Shown here: piece by piece, positions 3,329-54,839 of the stretch
How the letters are laid out: each line of letters starts with the position of its first letter
Position numbering within the stretch: position 1 is the stretch's first letter
Assembly: GCA_902575815.1 (NCBI GenBank)
Contig: CACGTA010000003.1
Location: 31,898 to 95,897 of the forward strand
Reading direction: 5' to 3'
From: an uncultured Alphaproteobacteria bacterium
GTDB lineage: Bacteria; Pseudomonadota; Alphaproteobacteria; HIMB59; GCA-002718135
DNA: 64,000 nt
The notes under the pieces: model-generated
The model's input: the letters and a program-made list of their open reading frames with translations, nothing else
Database searches by the model: none
What the model was told of the DNA's origin: nothing
Position numbers and translations under genes: made by a program

Positions 3329-4567
3329 TTAATTACACCATTCTCCATGTTTAAAAATAGGCGTTACAACACCATCCTTATCAATGCCGTCGACATCAAT
3401 CTTGCCTGAACCGATCATCCAATCAATATGTATCATACTTGAATTACCACCTCTTTGAGTGATTTCATCTTTCGATAAGTCTTTTTTCGATTTAAAGCAT
3501 TTTGAGTAACACTGCCCAAGAGCTATATGAGAAGCAGCATTTTCATCAAATAGTGTATTATAAAAAGTTATTCCTAATTGCGATATCGGTGAACTATTAG
3601 GAACTAGTGCTACTTCTCCAAGTCTTCTAGAGCCTTCATCTGAATCAAGAACTTTTAATAAAACATCTTGTCCTTTAGAAGACTTTGCATCAACAATTTT
3701 ACCTTCTTCAAATCGAACATTAATATCTTCAATTAGTGTTCCTTGATAAGATAGAGGTTTGGTTGAACAGACTTCTCCACTTACTCGACTCGCATGAGGA
3801 GTTGTGAATACTTCTTCAGATGGAATATTTGGATTACAAACAACACCATTCTGTGCTTCTGACGCTCCTCCCATCCACTCATGATCCTCAGCAAGACCTA
3901 CAGTTAAAGATGTTCCAGGACCAGAGTATTTTAAAGAATGAAAATTTTTAGCATTTAACCAATCTGTTTTATCTCTTAAATTTTTATTATGTTGGTCCCA
4001 TTCAGCTACAGGGTCATCATTACTAACTCTTGAAGCATGAAATATTGCATCTCCTAATTTTTTAATTGCTTCACTATCATCAAGATCTGGGAAGACTCTT
4101 TTTGCCCATGCTTTTCCTGGCCACGAAATTATATTCCAGTTAATTTTAAATTCAGTAATTCTTTCTCTAGCTGGTTTGTATGCAACGGCATTAGCTTTAT
4201 TTGCACGCGAAACTTTATTAGGATCAATTTCAGATAGTAGCATGGGATCATCACCAGCAATAGCCATTCTAGCTGTATTGTTATCAAAAGCTTCACCCAT
4301 CCCATTATAAAGCCAATTTGCTGCAACATTGAAAGATTCATCATTGCCAAACTTAAATCGAGATAATGTAATATCAGAATCATTGAATAGTGGGGTCACA
4401 AGTCCAGCTCCTTCTTTGTAAGCATATTCTGCTATTTTTCTAACTAAAGGTAAAGATTCTAACGGGGCTGTTATTAAAAGGTTTTGACCTTTTTGTAGTG
4501 CAACTCCTCTTTTAATTGATAGATGAGCAAGTTTATCGATCTTTTTTGTATCTACATCATAAAACAT
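3329..4567 (-). CDS. Aminopeptidase, M29 family
   Basis: 412 aa; full-length similarity to the thermophilic M29 aminopeptidase type (HIDWMIGSGKIDVDG, EWMGGASEAQNG). Confidence 0.88.
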   Translation of the reverse strand: MFYDVDTKKIDKLAHLSIKRGVALQKGQNLLITAPLESLPLVRKIAEYAYKEGAGLVTPLFNDSDITLSRFKFGNDESFNVAANWLYNGMGEAFDNNTARMAIAGDDPMLLSEIDPNKVSRANKANAVAYKPARERITEFKINWNIISWPGKAWAKRVFPDLDDSEAIKKLGDAIFHASRVSNDDPVAEWDQHNKNLRDKTDWLNAKNFHSLKYSGPGTSLTVGLAEDHEWMGGASEAQNGVVCNPNIPSEEVFTTPHASRVSGEVCSTKPLSYQGTLIEDINVRFEEGKIVDAKSSKGQDVLLKVLDSDEGSRRLGEVALVPNSSPISQLGITFYNTLFDENAASHIALGQCYSKCFKSKKDLSKDEITQRGGNSSMIHIDWMIGSGKIDVDGIDKDGVVTPIFKHGEWCN

Positions 4568-8108: not shown

Positions 8109-9083
8109 ATGAAAAGGGAAATTAGTAGAAAATTCTGTGTAGCTCCAATGATGGGATATACAACTCCATATGCAAGAAAACTTTATAGAATTTTGTCAAA
8201 TAATAGTTTTTTATTTAGTGAAATGATAGCAACAAAATCACTGATTTACTCAAAGAGTAGAGAAAATATTATTGATAATGATTTTAACAACCCTGTTGCT
8301 CTTCAAGTAGGTGGTTCTGAAATTGATGAATTAATAAAAGCTTCTCAAATAGCAATAGATTACAACTACGACGAAATAAACTTAAATGTTGGCTGTCCAA
8401 GTAAAGCTGTTCAAAAGGGTAGTTTTGGTGCATGTCTGATGAAAGATAAAATTCTTGTAAAAAATTGTATAGAAGCTTTACAAAATGATGAGATTGAAGC
8501 TACATTAAAATGTAGATTGGGATTAGGCAGAGAATTAAATTACGAATTCTTTGAAGAGTTTATTGATGAGATATCAAAGACTGGAATCAAATTTATTTAT
8601 GTGCATGCAAGAAATGCAATTCTTAGTGGTATTAGTCCGCAGGCCAACAGATCAATACCACCACTTAGTTATGATTTTGTAAAAAAAATTAAAAATAAAT
8701 ATCCCAATATAACATTTATCCTTAATGGAGGTATAAACAATCTTGATAAAGCTGAAAGTCTATTAAAAGAGTTTGATGGTGTAATGGTTGGAAGATTAAT
8801 TAAAAATAATCCATTCATATTAAAAGAAGTTGATAACAAGATTTTTAATGAAAAAAATAAATTAATTGATGAATCAATAATTTATAATTATTTTGAATAT
8901 ATAAAACCAAAATTAGGTTTTGAATCAATATTTAGATTACTAAGTCCTCTGCTTAGTATTTTTTTTTCAGTTCCACATAGTAAAATTTATAAATCTAAGA
9001 TTAATGATTATATGAAAGATCAAAAAATAAATTTAATTGAAGATTTATTGATAAAATTTGTTAGTGAGAAAAATCTTAGTTAA
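8109..9083 (+). CDS. dusA: tRNA-dihydrouridine synthase (DusA type)
   Basis: 324 aa; APMMGYT, LNVGCPSKAVQKGSFGACLM, KCRLGL and HARNAILSG. Confidence 0.93.
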   Translation: MKREISRKFCVAPMMGYTTPYARKLYRILSNNSFLFSEMIATKSLIYSKSRENIIDNDFNNPVALQVGGSEIDELIKASQIAIDYNYDEINLNVGCPSKAVQKGSFGACLMKDKILVKNCIEALQNDEIEATLKCRLGLGRELNYEFFEEFIDEISKTGIKFIYVHARNAILSGISPQANRSIPPLSYDFVKKIKNKYPNITFILNGGINNLDKAESLLKEFDGVMVGRLIKNNPFILKEVDNKIFNEKNKLIDESIIYNYFEYIKPKLGFESIFRLLSPLLSIFFSVPHSKIYKSKINDYMKDQKINLIEDLLIKFVSEKNLS

Positions 9084-10547: not shown

Positions 10548-11360
10548 TCATTTATTTTCAAATAAATCTAAAATCTCACCATTTTCACTGAAAATTCCAC
10601 ACAAAATTCTATTATTAGATAAGGGCTGTTTAAATAAGGTACAAACAATATTATTTTTAGAAATTTCTAACTGATTTATATGTTTAGATTCATATCCTCT
10701 TACAATCCTCAAAAATGTTTTGTAAGGCTGTTGCATTGTCGAAAAATTTTGATAGCCCCACCAAAAACAATCATTTTGTGCAGATAGAGGTCTAGAAACA
10801 TCTACTCCTCTATTTACAAACAATATTTTTTTTGTGTGTGAATATGCAGCATGTTTTAGATTCAAAAAATATTGAACGTGACCCGGGTTATCATTAATAG
10901 CTTTATTTAAGTTTGAGGTCCATTTTGATATATTGATTGTTCCAGAGGATGCTACTTTTTTAACTTCATTTTCTGAAAAACCATATGATTTAATTGTTTC
11001 GTTTACTCCATGATCAAACATCCATTCTAAGATTTCAGTAGGATTAGGTGCTAGTTGTAATTGCAATAATTTACTAAACATTTCCTCTTGGGCACCTCTT
11101 AAAAATATAATTGAATCAGGTTTCAATTTAAACTTTGACATTAAATTAAATCTTAAATCAATGACACTACTTAAGGTATCTTTTGAGTTATGCCCTAACC
11201 CAATAATATTACCCAAGAAAATCAATTTGTCGTTTGACTCAAAATTATTCAGAATAAATTCTTTAATAGATATAAATGATTTTAAATTTGAATGTATAGA
11301 ACCTATAGCCCATAATTTATTTGATTTTTTTAATTCTACAAAATTACTAATATTTTCCAA
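10548..11360 (-). CDS. Metallophosphoesterase (PPP-family)-like protein with degenerate catalytic motifs
   Basis: 270 aa; fold landmarks recognisable (WAIGSIHSNLKS, KLIFLGNIIGLGHNS, SIIFLRGAQEEM), but canonical GDxHG / GDxxDRG / GNHE residues are replaced. Confidence 0.65.
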   Translation of the reverse strand: MENISNFVELKKSNKLWAIGSIHSNLKSFISIKEFILNNFESNDKLIFLGNIIGLGHNSKDTLSSVIDLRFNLMSKFKLKPDSIIFLRGAQEEMFSKLLQLQLAPNPTEILEWMFDHGVNETIKSYGFSENEVKKVASSGTINISKWTSNLNKAINDNPGHVQYFLNLKHAAYSHTKKILFVNRGVDVSRPLSAQNDCFWWGYQNFSTMQQPYKTFLRIVRGYESKHINQLEISKNNIVCTLFKQPLSNNRILCGIFSENGEILDLFENK

Positions 11361-44959: not shown

Positions 44960-46482
44960 TTTTAGCTTTAAAAAAAATAATATTTAATAACATAACATCA
45001 AAATTTAATTCTAGAAAAGACTTGTCTTATTTAGATCTTAATTTTAGAAAAATAGATTTTACAAATCATAACAAGATAAAGTCATTTATTTTTAAAAAAG
45101 ATTTTTATAAAAATAAAAATATTCATAATTTTGATTTTTTAAATTTTTCAAATAGGCTTGGAGGTAAAATAGGAATAAATTTATCTAAAGAAGCAATTTT
45201 TGGATGGTACAAACTAAACAAAAATAAAATAGGCTTTCCTTGGTTAGAAGATTTACCATCTAAAAGGCTGATAAATCTTTTATATAACTATGAGTATATA
45301 AACTCCTCATCAAAAATAGATAACAAAAAAAAATTAGATTTTATAATTTATTTTCATATTCAAAGAATTTTATTTGATTTCAATTCGAAGAAAATAACAG
45401 AATTAACATCATTTGATCTTGTGGCATATTTATTATCTTGTTCAATTCTTGAAAAAATGAATGAAAAAAAAATAAATTATATTAAATTTATAGTTGATAA
45501 CCAAGTTGACAAATTAGGAATGCATAAAAGTTATAATTTATTAGAACATTCTAAATTTATTAATAATCTTAACGAGATAAAAAATATTTTACTTTTTTTT
45601 GAATTAGAAAAATCAAATATATTTGACAAGATAATTCTCAAAATGACATCTATATTAAATGAATATTTTCATTATGATGGAACATTACCACTGTTTAATG
45701 GTACAAATAATATTTATACAAAAAATATCTACAATTCCCTGAATAAAGAAAACTATTTAAAAAAAAGAGAGTTTTCTAATATAGACAATGGAATTGCATT
45801 TTACTCAGATAAATATAAAAAAATTTTTTTTGATGTAGTACAGCCAACTTCAGATATGATAAGTTCTAATCTCAGTGCAGGAACTCTATCTATTGAAATA
45901 AGTGGCTTTAACGAAAAAATAATTACTAACTGTGGAGCTTCAGAGAGTTTTGGTAAAAATCCTGAATATCTAAGATATAGTGCTGCTCATTCAACTGTTG
46001 TTTTGCAAAATACTAACATAAGTGAGATAAAAGAAGACAATCCACACATAAAATTTCCTCAATCTGTTGTCTTTAGAAAAGATACTGATCAACAGAAAGA
46101 AATATTTGAGGGATCACATAATGGATATTTAAAAAAGTTTAATAAAATAATTAAAAGAAAAATAATTATTTACAAAAATAAAAGTAAATTAGAAGGAGAG
46201 GATAGTTTAATTTCTTATAAACATAAAAATATAAGACTAATTTATCATATTAGGTTTCATCTGGCAGATGAAATGGTTTTAAATTTTACAAATAATAAAA
46301 AAAATGTAATTATAAAAACAAAACTAAACAACATTTGGCTTTTTAAAAGTAATACTGAGCTGATTATAGAGGATAGTATATCAGTCGATAATAATATTAC
46401 TAAACCAACTAAACAAATTGTGATTAAAGGTGTATTATCAGATAAAAAGATTGTAGAAAAATGGTCCATAGAAAAAATCTAA
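44956..46482 (+). CDS. Heparinase II/III family protein
   Basis: 508 aa; NLSAGTLSIEISGFNEKIITNCGA and ...YSAAHSTVVLQN. Confidence 0.85.
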   Translation: MILALKKIIFNNITSKFNSRKDLSYLDLNFRKIDFTNHNKIKSFIFKKDFYKNKNIHNFDFLNFSNRLGGKIGINLSKEAIFGWYKLNKNKIGFPWLEDLPSKRLINLLYNYEYINSSSKIDNKKKLDFIIYFHIQRILFDFNSKKITELTSFDLVAYLLSCSILEKMNEKKINYIKFIVDNQVDKLGMHKSYNLLEHSKFINNLNEIKNILLFFELEKSNIFDKIILKMTSILNEYFHYDGTLPLFNGTNNIYTKNIYNSLNKENYLKKREFSNIDNGIAFYSDKYKKIFFDVVQPTSDMISSNLSAGTLSIEISGFNEKIITNCGASESFGKNPEYLRYSAAHSTVVLQNTNISEIKEDNPHIKFPQSVVFRKDTDQQKEIFEGSHNGYLKKFNKIIKRKIIIYKNKSKLEGEDSLISYKHKNIRLIYHIRFHLADEMVLNFTNNKKNVIIKTKLNNIWLFKSNTELIIEDSISVDNNITKPTKQIVIKGVLSDKKIVEKWSIEKI

Positions 46483-47060
46483 AAAAAAAATTTGCCTTAA
46501 TTTCTGTATTTGAAAAAAAAAATTTAAAATATCTTTGTGATAATTTAGATAAATATAACTATAGGTTTATATCAAGTGGTTCTACAGGAAATAAAATAAG
46601 AAGTTTAGGCTTCAAATGCCAGGATATTTCAAAACTAACTAAATTTAAAGAAATGTTTGAGGGTAGAGTTAAAACATTAAATCCATTGATCTATAGCTCT
46701 TTGCTCTACAAAAGAAATGATAAGAATCACCAAAAACAGTTTCAGTCTTTAGACTTCCCCAAAATAGATATTGTTGTAGTAAATCTTTATCCATTTAAGA
46801 AATATTTAAGAAAAAATAATAGTGATCAAATTATAGAAATGATAGATATAGGAGGTCCGAGTTTATTAAGGGCAGCAGGAAAAAATTTTGAACATATTAC
46901 TCCAATAATAGACATAATGGATTATAAAAAATTAATTACTAATTTGGAAAAAAATAAAGGAACAACTGATATTTTTTTTAGAAAAAAAATGGCATTAAAA
47001 GTTTTTAAAAAAACATCTCAATATGATGAAATAATCGCTAATTGGTTAAATGAAAAATAA
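46461..47060 (+). CDS. purH: PurH N-terminal part: IMP cyclohydrolase domain (separate ORF)
   Basis: 199 aa; ALISVFEKKNL, ISSGSTGNKIR, MFEGRVKTLNPLI, VVNLYPF, IDIGGPSLLRAAGKN. Confidence 0.9.
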   Translation: MVHRKNLKKKFALISVFEKKNLKYLCDNLDKYNYRFISSGSTGNKIRSLGFKCQDISKLTKFKEMFEGRVKTLNPLIYSSLLYKRNDKNHQKQFQSLDFPKIDIVVVNLYPFKKYLRKNNSDQIIEMIDIGGPSLLRAAGKNFEHITPIIDIMDYKKLITNLEKNKGTTDIFFRKKMALKVFKKTSQYDEIIANWLNEK

Positions 47061-47967
47061 AAGCAGAAAAACTAAATTAAGGTATGGTGAAAACCCAAAT
47101 CAAGATAGTTATTTAATTAGTCGTTCAAAGTCCTCTGTTTTTGAAAATCAAATTAGTGGAAAGAAATTAAGTTATAACAATCTGATTGATCTTGATAGTG
47201 GATTAAAATGTTTAATGGAATTTGTTGAGCCTACATCAATAATTCTCAAACATACAAATCCTTGCGGTGTTGCCTCAGCAAAAAAAATTGAGGTTGCTTT
47301 TAATAAATCTTATGAAAGTGATCCAAAAAGTGCTTTTGGAGGAATAATATTTTTAAATAGGAAGGTATCTTATAAGCTTGCTAAAATTATATTTAAAAAT
47401 TTTTATGAAATGATAGTTGCTGCTGATTATGATCAAGCTGCTATCAAAATATTAGAGAAAAAGAAGAATTTAATTTTGTTAAAAATTCCCAATATTAAAA
47501 AAAAATCAGTTGAATATAGGTCAACTCTCTTTGGAGATCTTTATCAGACTACAGATTTAGATCCAATCAATAAAAAATTTCTTAGATTGGTCTCAAAAAA
47601 AAAGGGGTCAAAGAAATCAATTGATGACTTAATATTCTCATTGAAAATTGTAAAATATTTAAAATCAAATGCTGTTATATTATCTAGAAATAAGCAAACC
47701 TTAGGATTAGGTCATGGGCAAACAAACAGGGTAGATGCTCTAAATTTATCAATTAAAAATATGAATAAATATTTTAAAAAGGGTAACTTTGTTTGTGCTT
47801 CAGATGGATTTTTTCCTTTTAAAGACAGTATCAACCTACTTAATAATAATGGATGTAATGTTGTAGCTCAACCTAGTGGTTCTATAAATGATAAGATAAT
47901 AATATCCTATTCTATAAGAAATAAAATTTCATTATATTTTACAAAAAATAGATTGTTTAAACATTGA
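47050..47967 (+). CDS. purH: PurH C-terminal part: AICAR transformylase domain (separate ORF)
   Basis: 305 aa; LRYGENPNQ, LKHTNPCGVASA, SDPKSAFGGI, GLGHGQTNRVDAL, CASDGFFPF, AQPSGSINDK. Confidence 0.92.
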   Translation: MKNKSRKTKLRYGENPNQDSYLISRSKSSVFENQISGKKLSYNNLIDLDSGLKCLMEFVEPTSIILKHTNPCGVASAKKIEVAFNKSYESDPKSAFGGIIFLNRKVSYKLAKIIFKNFYEMIVAADYDQAAIKILEKKKNLILLKIPNIKKKSVEYRSTLFGDLYQTTDLDPINKKFLRLVSKKKGSKKSIDDLIFSLKIVKYLKSNAVILSRNKQTLGLGHGQTNRVDALNLSIKNMNKYFKKGNFVCASDGFFPFKDSINLLNNNGCNVVAQPSGSINDKIIISYSIRNKISLYFTKNRLFKH

Positions 47968-52870: not shown

Positions 52871-52899
52871 TTATTTATTTATTTTTGATATTTAGATTA

Positions 52900-52943
52900 G
52901 CGAAAGGTTTCAAATACTCGACTTCTGCCTTGGCAAGGTTGCC
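52900..52943 (-). pseudogene. Degenerate tRNA-Gly(GCC) fragment
   Basis: GCGAAAGGTTTCAAATACTCGACTTCTGCCTTGGCAAGGTTGC aligns without gaps to 53900-53942 of the intact tRNA-Gly; 34 of the first 41 positions match by hand count. The cloverleaf is broken. Confidence 0.8.
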
Positions 52944-53030
52944 GAGTACGAACTTGATCACCACAATCCTAAGTAATCTATAACATATTATACCATCAAC
53001 CGATAAGAATTAAAAAAAATTAATCATAAA

Positions 53031-53792
53031 TTAATCCCGAGGAACCAAAGGGTACATATCAAAATTTTGTTCGTCAAAAAACTTTAAACGATTAGGTATT
53101 GTGTTTAAAACTAATTCGTTATTTTCTTTTAATATTCTATCTGAACGATAGCGCACAGCTATCCATGTCAAAATACTCTCAGCCACATCTTCACTTTCAG
53201 GAAATTTTTTAGCATAATCAGAAATATGTTCTTTGTCTTTACTTTTTGCTTTTTCCCATTTAGCTTTACTTAGTAGTCCACCGAAATCCCAATCTAAAGA
53301 TGTATGACCTGCTTCATGGATAAAAACTTCTTCTAGAATTTCTTTAGAAATATATTCTTTACTTCTATCGGTGTGAATTAATAAATTTTCATTACCACCA
53401 CCATAGCTTTTATTTCCTTTGTGGATCCAGACAGTTTTTACATTGGTAAGTAAAAAATTTGGCAATCTTCCAATCACTTCAGAGTAATAAAACGCTTCCT
53501 TAAATGCGTTATCAACATTTTTAAATTCAGGATTTACTTGTATTTCAATAATTCTTTCCTCGTATACTGCATTAAATAAAAATACCTCTTTGTTTAACCA
53601 TCGACCACCTTTTCTACGATCAAACATTTCACGATAATCTTTCCCAGTATAAATTAGCTCCTTAAATGTTGTTGGATCATTAGAGCTAATTACATCTGGA
53701 AAATACCAAATGGTTCCATCGTATGGTGGCTTAGCTTGGAGATTCATAGAAGAACAAAAAACTAGAATAAGTAAAATTGAGATAAATTTCAT
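53031..53792 (-). CDS. Secreted HExxH-type putative metalloprotease, unknown family
   Basis: 253 aa; signal peptide; EVFIHEAGHTSLDWDFGGLL (HExxH). Confidence 0.6.
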   Translation of the reverse strand: MKFISILLILVFCSSMNLQAKPPYDGTIWYFPDVISSNDPTTFKELIYTGKDYREMFDRRKGGRWLNKEVFLFNAVYEERIIEIQVNPEFKNVDNAFKEAFYYSEVIGRLPNFLLTNVKTVWIHKGNKSYGGGNENLLIHTDRSKEYISKEILEEVFIHEAGHTSLDWDFGGLLSKAKWEKAKSKDKEHISDYAKKFPESEDVAESILTWIAVRYRSDRILKENNELVLNTIPNRLKFFDEQNFDMYPLVPRD

Positions 53793-53891
53793 ATTAATAT
53801 TTTGAAACTCTATTAATTTTTTTAATTCATCAAGAGTATAATATTTAAAATGCCGATATAAGGCCGATTAAGAGTAATTTATCTAGAATTT

Positions 53892-53966
53892 TGGAGCGGG
53901 CGAAGGGATTCGAACCCTCGACTTCAACCTTGGCAAGGTTGCGCTCTACCCCTGAGCTACGCCCGC
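53892..53966 (-). tRNA. tRNA-Gly (anticodon GCC), CCA encoded
   Basis: Minus strand GCGGGCGTAGCTCAGGGGTAGAGCGCAACCTTGCCAAGGTTGAAGTCGAGGGTTCGAATCCCTTCGCCCGCTCCA folds as a cloverleaf. Confidence 0.97.
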
Positions 53967-54020: not shown

Positions 54021-54839
54021 TTATTTAAATCTTCTTCTATAGATAACATCAACCAGTAACATATGAGGAAGAGTTAATGCCGCAAGACCGATGAAAATTA
54101 CTTTTAATATTGACTCATATAACGAAAGATTTTGAACCAAATAGTAAATAATTCCTAAACCACCAACCCAAGAAATGATTGTAAAAACTAATGTTGAGTA
54201 AATAACAAATTTTTTATTTGTTAAATTTAAATAAATATTTTTAATCAAATGTTTTAGATGTTTATAGGTATGGAAAAAACAAAAATATATTGCAAAACTT
54301 AGAAGTGGATCAAGGAAATAAAAAATTATTAAAAGAAATAAAATTTCAATAACTCCTTTTCTTAATTTCTTTTCAAAGATAGATAGGTAAATAAAATATA
54401 TTATTGAGAGTATAGTTAAAAAATAAGGAATAAATAAATATTTTTGAATTAAATAAATTTTATCATTAGTAAGATATTCAAATATCAAGAAAGATTGTTT
54501 TTCATTAAAGAATATAATACCAAATATAATTGTCATTCCATATGTAAAGCTCACAGAATACTTGTATTTATTAATTTTAAAGTTTGTCCAATCACATAAA
54601 CCAAAATGAATAATAGTCATTATTATAAATATAGTCAGTGCAATAATAGAAAAGTTTAACCAAAATAAAATTACAAAGAAAAATAGAATGATGTAATAAA
54701 ATAGAAATTGTACAAATTGAATTGTCTTATTAAATCCTACCAATGCAGCAACTGCACCATCAAATGAGCCATGAGGTAGCCCAATAAAAAAGATCAATAA
54801 AAAGGAAATTATATTTAAAATTGAAAGATCGGCCATCAC
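54021..54839 (-). CDS. blh: Brp/Blh family beta-carotene 15,15'-dioxygenase
   Basis: 272 aa; FFIGLPHGSFDGAVA, FHTYKHLKHL, LPHMLLVDVIYRRR; next to crtYBI. Confidence 0.93.
   Translation of the reverse strand: MMADLSILNIISFLLIFFIGLPHGSFDGAVAALVGFNKTIQFVQFLFYYIILFFFVILFWLNFSIIALTIFIIMTIIHFGLCDWTNFKINKYKYSVSFTYGMTIIFGIIFFNEKQSFLIFEYLTNDKIYLIQKYLFIPYFLTILSIIYFIYLSIFEKKLRKGVIEILFLLIIFYFLDPLLSFAIYFCFFHTYKHLKHLIKNIYLNLTNKKFVIYSTLVFTIISWVGGLGIIYYLVQNLSLYESILKVIFIGLAALTLPHMLLVDVIYRRRFK

Follow-up and report, generated by a model that had tools for sequence, protein, structure and literature searches.

The segment beside the tRNA-Gly(GCC) gene in the window (the whole stretch of 64,000 nucleotides analysed here, G000 in genome comparisons) is very likely an integrase-less mobile gene cassette, an old insertion at the 3′ half of this tRNA gene that was probably mobilized in trans by a tyrosine recombinase. 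The preliminary description had read the segment as an att-like scar of an island around a single HExxH gene, and relatives support and extend this reading with alternative cargo, integrases and the recurrence of the HExxH gene with the same boundary. ARAGORN and Rfam found a single intact tRNA-Gly(GCC) in the window, at 53892–53966 on the minus strand (Rfam RF00005, 70.9 bits), which is the integration target. Its positions 25–75, from the anticodon arm to CCA, make up the tRNA-proximal attachment segment (53892–53942, minus strand), as delimited by the breakpoint at positions 25–27 that recurs among displaced copies in relatives. A displaced, decayed copy of the same positions lies at 52892–52942 (minus strand), beyond the 3′ end of the tRNA and in the same orientation, as described earlier from a shorter alignment. 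The earlier count of 34 of 41 matches between 52900–52940 and 53900–53940 is exact on recount; BLASTN aligned 36 of 43 bases over tRNA positions 25–67, and 37 of 51 match over positions 25–75, whereas no other 51-mer of the window, on whichever strand, matches at more than 25 of 51 bases. In the 1.07-Mb assembly the sole other significant match besides the remnant was the tRNA itself (E 5e-7), and when, as a control, the homologous loci (868,755 bases) were scanned on their opposite strand at an equal threshold, there were 0 hits. The remnant alone matched no Rfam family, and membership of another RNA family was rejected on this ground. The segment thus has the layout expected of a tRNA-targeted island of the tyrosine-recombinase type, with an intact tRNA at one border and a displaced 3′ fragment, directly repeated, at the other. 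The spacing of exactly 1,000 bp noted previously is true of the window but coincidental, as the same cassette spans 1,028 bp in genome G069.

The whole integrated unit (52892–53942, minus strand) consists of the attachment segment, a 949-bp one-gene cassette and the displaced attachment segment. The left end of the cassette (53793–53891, minus strand) begins directly at the tRNA CCA, and this boundary and the end sequence are common to the window, G069, G079 and G078; it holds a repeated ATCGGC motif that may represent integrase arm sites. The right end (TATGTTATAGATTACTTAGGATTGTGGTGATCAAGTTCGTACTCG; 52943–52987, minus strand) belongs to an end family also present in G069, G117, G115, G014 and G023, and resembles that of the integrase element in G072 (TAGGA...GATC...GTAC). 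Neither an integrase in the unit nor a PF00589 match in the 58% complete assembly was found, and among the elements compared no helper integrase matched the left end of the window cassette. With 14 of the 51 attachment bases changed, the window copy is probably an old insertion that has become fixed.

The only open reading frame between the tRNA and the remnant (53031–53792, minus strand) encodes a 253-aa HExxH metallopeptidase-like protein with a signal-peptide-like N terminus. Across 14 homologues, H159, E160 and H163 are kept together with the later acidic residues E201, D202 and E205; the short homologues also start with a signal-peptide-like segment, and one distant subgroup has MORN-like repeats in front. 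The protein has no Pfam match. Its AlphaFold2 model is of moderate confidence (pLDDT 76), and a fold search with it returned no PDB match at E ≤ 0.001, only weak matches to HExxH aminopeptidases. As the search gave no confident solved relative, we claim only a metallopeptidase-like protein, most likely a zinc metallopeptidase that is secreted. The cargo is under purifying selection (dN/dS 0.12–0.15), indicating that the protein is used. A defence role was rejected, as PADLOC gave no match to the window gene. A viral origin was likewise rejected: a pattern scan of IMG/VR returned no HExxH relatives, and in L147, the sole viral contig containing the att sequence, a complete tRNA-Gly lies in unrelated surroundings.

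Homologous loci were sampled by searching with the adjacent beta-carotene dioxygenase gene (blh), which gave matches in 69 of 102 same-genus genomes; 60 relatives' loci were oriented at the tRNA and, with the window, formed a set of 61 in which the tRNA lies downstream of the crt cluster. The tRNA-Gly sequence was identical, and in the same place as in the window, in 60 of 60 relatives. One to five direct copies of its 3′ part were found in 46 of the 61 loci (87 copies overall), which is the repeated insertion at one site expected of an additive flexible island; the remaining 15 loci had no displaced copy, and their downstream region was itself variable. Neither a clear empty site nor a cassette excised as a circle was seen. 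Most displaced copies start sharply at tRNA position 25–27, in the anticodon arm, and end at CCA, and in many relatives the segment is preserved at 51 of 51 bases. Another class starts at about position 45–53, in the T arm. These two breakpoints correspond to two of the classical sites within tRNA genes at which tyrosine integrases act. The copies bound 87 intervals of 506 bp to 13.7 kb, 59 of them no longer than 1.6 kb and often holding one gene, and their gene content differs between relatives, so that alternative cargo at this tRNA-Gly was indeed found. Cargo of the small units includes a 275-aa sulfotransferase, an 86/97-aa protein of unknown function, an MFS transporter, an HNH protein, a TPR-sulfotransferase, a flavodoxin/alternative-oxidase trio and others without a family; the larger intervals carry type I/III-like or IIG restriction-modification genes, DndB, a carbamoyltransferase or an 868-aa DUF5906 protein. 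Conjugation genes were not recognized in any element sampled. Strict age polarity of the arrays was rejected, the relation between order and decay being a weak trend (Spearman −0.32; first-versus-last sign test, p 0.12).

Two further observations concern the tRNA genes around these arrays. A second complete or near-complete tRNA-Gly copy lies within the arrays of L067, L075, L161 and L163 (G122, G031, G056 and G096), so that some array units appear to carry nearly the whole tRNA. In five genomes (L046, L052, L057, L061 and L087) a tRNA-Ser(TGA) lies on the opposite strand about 1.7–3.5 kb from tRNA-Gly, and several of these also hold a 1,269-bp sulfotransferase cassette.

The HExxH gene recurs at this tRNA-Gly in four same-genus genomes at differing array positions: in the second unit of G069, 2.4 kb downstream in G119, behind a 5-kb integrase element in G079 and in the first unit of G078. 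The window and G069 also have the right end and the displaced att in common, the latter better kept in G069 (47 of 51 bases), and their one-gene cassettes measure 949 and 977 bp with the gene at offset 100–861 in both. In 10 of 10 genome pairs the HExxH gene was more similar than blh. Between the window and G069 its identity was 89% versus 71% for blh, 58% for the C part of purH and 64% for a further core gene; overall, identity of the HExxH cargo reached 79–91% where core genes stood at 58–64%.

Sharing of single units was evaluated in 69 near-full-length cassette pairs between genomes with at least 85% DNA identity. In 56 pairs both neighbours were unrelated or more than 6 points more diverged than the cassette, and 13 pairs were not discriminating. 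A 1,235-bp sulfotransferase cassette, 99.6% identical between genomes whose core proteins are 74–77% identical, is the last of four units in G068 and the first in G109; a 507-bp cassette is 98.0% identical between G118 and G098, where core proteins share 58–62%. The relative order of the 275-aa and 97-aa units varies. Part of this sharing could be due to homologous recombination between arrays. Sharing unit by unit argues for independent movement as opposed to movement in cis with an adjacent integrating element.

Tyrosine integrases (PF00589) do lie inside elements at this tRNA-Gly in relatives, in 9 of the 87 intervals. Six belong to one family of 314–324 aa and adjoin the displaced site; three form a related group of 333–343 aa and adjoin the tRNA. 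When 45 bp at each interval end were clustered into end families, integrase-less units grouped with integrase elements: the 2.65-kb integrase-less unit of G090 matches the G018/G110/G095 integrase family at both ends, the integrase-less units of G066 and G086 match the G072 integrase element at the left end, and the right end of that element is common to many integrase-less units. The T-arm class and the G003 integrase element have a right end in common. G100 and G030 retain truncated integrases (101 and 84 aa) that are 77–85% identical to that of G072. The presence of full, truncated and absent integrases within shared end families leads us to propose movement in trans. The genome sequences compared here do show the sharing of single cassettes between species and the presence at the site of integrase elements with matching ends. 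A close phage source of the integrases was rejected, as the best phage matches reached only about 30% identity. In G081 a 5.8-kb element at tRNA-Gly encodes the 868-aa DUF5906 protein (L068, 11665–14268) side by side with a tyrosine integrase, and this element is a candidate autonomous, satellite-like helper.

The same cargo family is found at other tRNA genes. In G096, downstream of the intact tRNA-Ser(GGA), the HExxH gene is flanked by two displaced copies of the 3′ part of this tRNA (positions 19–90). An HExxH tRNA-Ser(GGA) unit with the 1,037-bp spacing seen in G096 occurs in G130, from another genus of the same family; the two units are 94.2% identical in DNA, and their flanks match over only 58 bp on the left and not at all on the right. 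In G132, of a third genus, the HExxH gene follows a displaced tRNA-Gly copy, and distant homologues adjoin tRNA-Leu(CAA) in several genomes. One of these, in G028, has a second copy of tRNA-Leu(CAA) positions 1–50 (96%) on its far side, a 5′-half version of the arrangement. Full or partial extra tRNA-Gly copies are also present in the second family of the order. The sequences likewise show the flanks, the unit boundaries and the recurrence across array positions and tRNA genes. Duplications of 5′ halves upstream of an intact tRNA were seen for tRNA-Leu(CAA) in L130 (G028; 8996–9080 and 11147–11196) and for tRNA-Gly in L162 (G037; 4226–4300 and 8472–8509), which suggests elements that carry a tRNA 5′ half together with its promoter.

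We propose the following route for the cassettes. The window cassette is built from its left end, the HExxH gene, its right end and an attachment site of 51 bp whose sequence originally equalled that of the tRNA between anticodon arm and CCA. A different element would provide the tyrosine recombinase, which would exchange strands in the anticodon stem-loop (CAACC TTGCCAA GGTTG; 53925–53941, minus strand), the presumed crossover site, within which the exact base is a conjecture, so that the incoming attachment site would rebuild the 3′ half of the tRNA and the resident half would be pushed downstream as the displaced copy. Repeated insertion would then stack cassettes beside the tRNA. Cassettes would thus probably be mobilized in trans by tyrosine integrases at tRNA hotspots, presumably as circular intermediates and with some vehicle carrying them between cells.

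Decay in place offers a different account, in which a larger autonomous integrase island at tRNA-Gly lost all but one cargo gene (a CIME formed by decay). Integrase-bearing elements of 5–14 kb at the same tRNA, the truncated integrases of G100 and G030 as deletion intermediates and the decayed attachment site of the window would all fit it. We nevertheless consider it unlikely, because the one-gene form in G069 is of the same length class, with the same ends and layout, as that in the window, implying that this form was already minimal before it spread, and because minimal cassettes other than that of the window are 98–99.9% identical between species as stand-alone units. The earlier suggestion that all other mobility genes had been lost is for these reasons probably wrong for the window copy: since an integrase-less one-gene form recurs in G069 and such forms are shared between species, the unit probably arrived without an integrase.

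Homologous recombination, with the conserved tRNA and the repeats as homology, could also have moved the segments in place of site-specific integration. The 51-bp repeats could serve as short homology and the identity of blh between genomes often exceeds that of purH, but this mechanism seems improbable: breakpoints fall at the tRNA attachment segment with both neighbours unrelated in most pairs, the anticodon-arm and T-arm breakpoints pair with different end families, and the HExxH gene sits in att-bounded units at both tRNA-Gly and tRNA-Ser. A decayed tandem duplication of tRNA-Gly that trapped an ordinary gene, raised previously as the alternative, is refuted as a general explanation and has almost no probability left. 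The few loci with a second complete or near-complete tRNA-Gly (G031, G122 and G056) would suit it, but the large majority of copies start abruptly at 25–27 or 45–53 and run to position 75, with cargo-specific ends before them, and the genes between copies differ from genome to genome. An integrase-less cassette moved in trans by a tyrosine recombinase is thus the reading that we prefer.

It is already established that elements, integrase-less ones included, insert in tandem at tRNA or tmRNA genes and repeat the 3′ end. The additive islands fGI-2 at tRNA-Lys of Ca. Methylopumilus measure 330 bp–42 kb and hold 1–63 CDS, mostly unknown genes (PMC10872708); they resemble the present arrays in their recurrent tRNA 3′-end repeats, very variable size and genome-streamlined aquatic host. 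The repeat described here is longer, a 51-bp anticodon-to-CCA segment besides the T-arm type, and, unlike in fGI-2, individual one-gene units recur across species and genera, with ends like those of integrase-bearing elements. CIMEs are described as decay products moved in cis with a neighbour and accreted in tandem (PMC5704250), and the ssrA islands of Dehalococcoides include ones without an integration module (PMC3146451). As in both, att-bounded units without integration or transfer genes are stacked with integrase elements at one tRNA or tmRNA; the window unit keeps its att sites and lacks such genes, and its relatives form tandem arrays. In contrast to CIMEs, single-gene units of 0.5–1.3 kb stand alone beside the tRNA in many of the species, a pattern suggestive of movement in trans. 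The tycheposons of Prochlorococcus, in the parts of PMC10872708 that treat them, are elements of 4–200 kb with a recombinase. Going by those parts, the arrays share with them tRNA targeting, tyrosine recombinases and cargo carriage in ocean bacteria, and the G081 element, with its integrase and DUF5906 protein, looks autonomous and of the general tycheposon type; the window unit falls outside that type, set by an own tyrosine recombinase and a size of at least about 4 kb, as it is 949 bp with one gene and no recombinase. Integron arrays are similar in being tandem, mostly single-gene, recombinase-less cassettes at one site served by tyrosine recombinases encoded elsewhere. Here, unlike in integrons, the attachment site is a tRNA gene half and not attI/attC, as judged from boundaries at tRNA-Gly positions 25–75 or 45–75, and the target is common to several integrase families.

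The unusual features are the small size of the units, most of them with a single gene, the stand-alone sharing between species and genera, the integrase-matched ends and the presence of one cargo family at three tRNA genes; a literature search of limited coverage found no paper describing such a miniature tRNA cassette system. With somewhat more doubt than belief, we extend this reading to an order-wide, integron-like tRNA system, in which mainly single-gene, integrase-less cassettes with integrase-family-specific ends at tRNA-Gly, tRNA-Ser and tRNA-Leu halves would be moved in trans between species and genera by the integrases of co-resident satellite-like elements, and cargo families would switch tRNA target by acquiring new ends. 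Streamlined ocean bacteria have few recognized mobile elements yet very large pangenomes, and one-gene tRNA cassettes would let them gain or swap single genes, such as sulfotransferases, flavodoxin with alternative oxidase or restriction-modification genes, without a recombinase of their own. With matched ends, the pairing of integrases with the cassettes that they move can be tested directly. The interest lies in the array system of the relatives, the window copy taken alone being an old scar that is probably immobile.

Some observations concern the neighbouring genes. The 48–53 kb region, described earlier as variable, consists in part of a conserved block (2OG-GT-2OG-MT-MT), present in about a dozen genomes. 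The blh gene beside the hotspot (window 54021–54839) is 85–99% identical between genomes in many pairs versus 58–76% for purH, a difference that may reflect exchange of the carotenoid cluster by recombination or simply its stronger conservation. At 46461–47967 of the window, purH consists of two open reading frames of 199 aa and 305 aa that differ in frame and overlap at ATGA; it is split in 35 of 44 same-genus loci, and both parts are in one frame in the other 9, a lineage-specific fission that apparently lies near the domain boundary.
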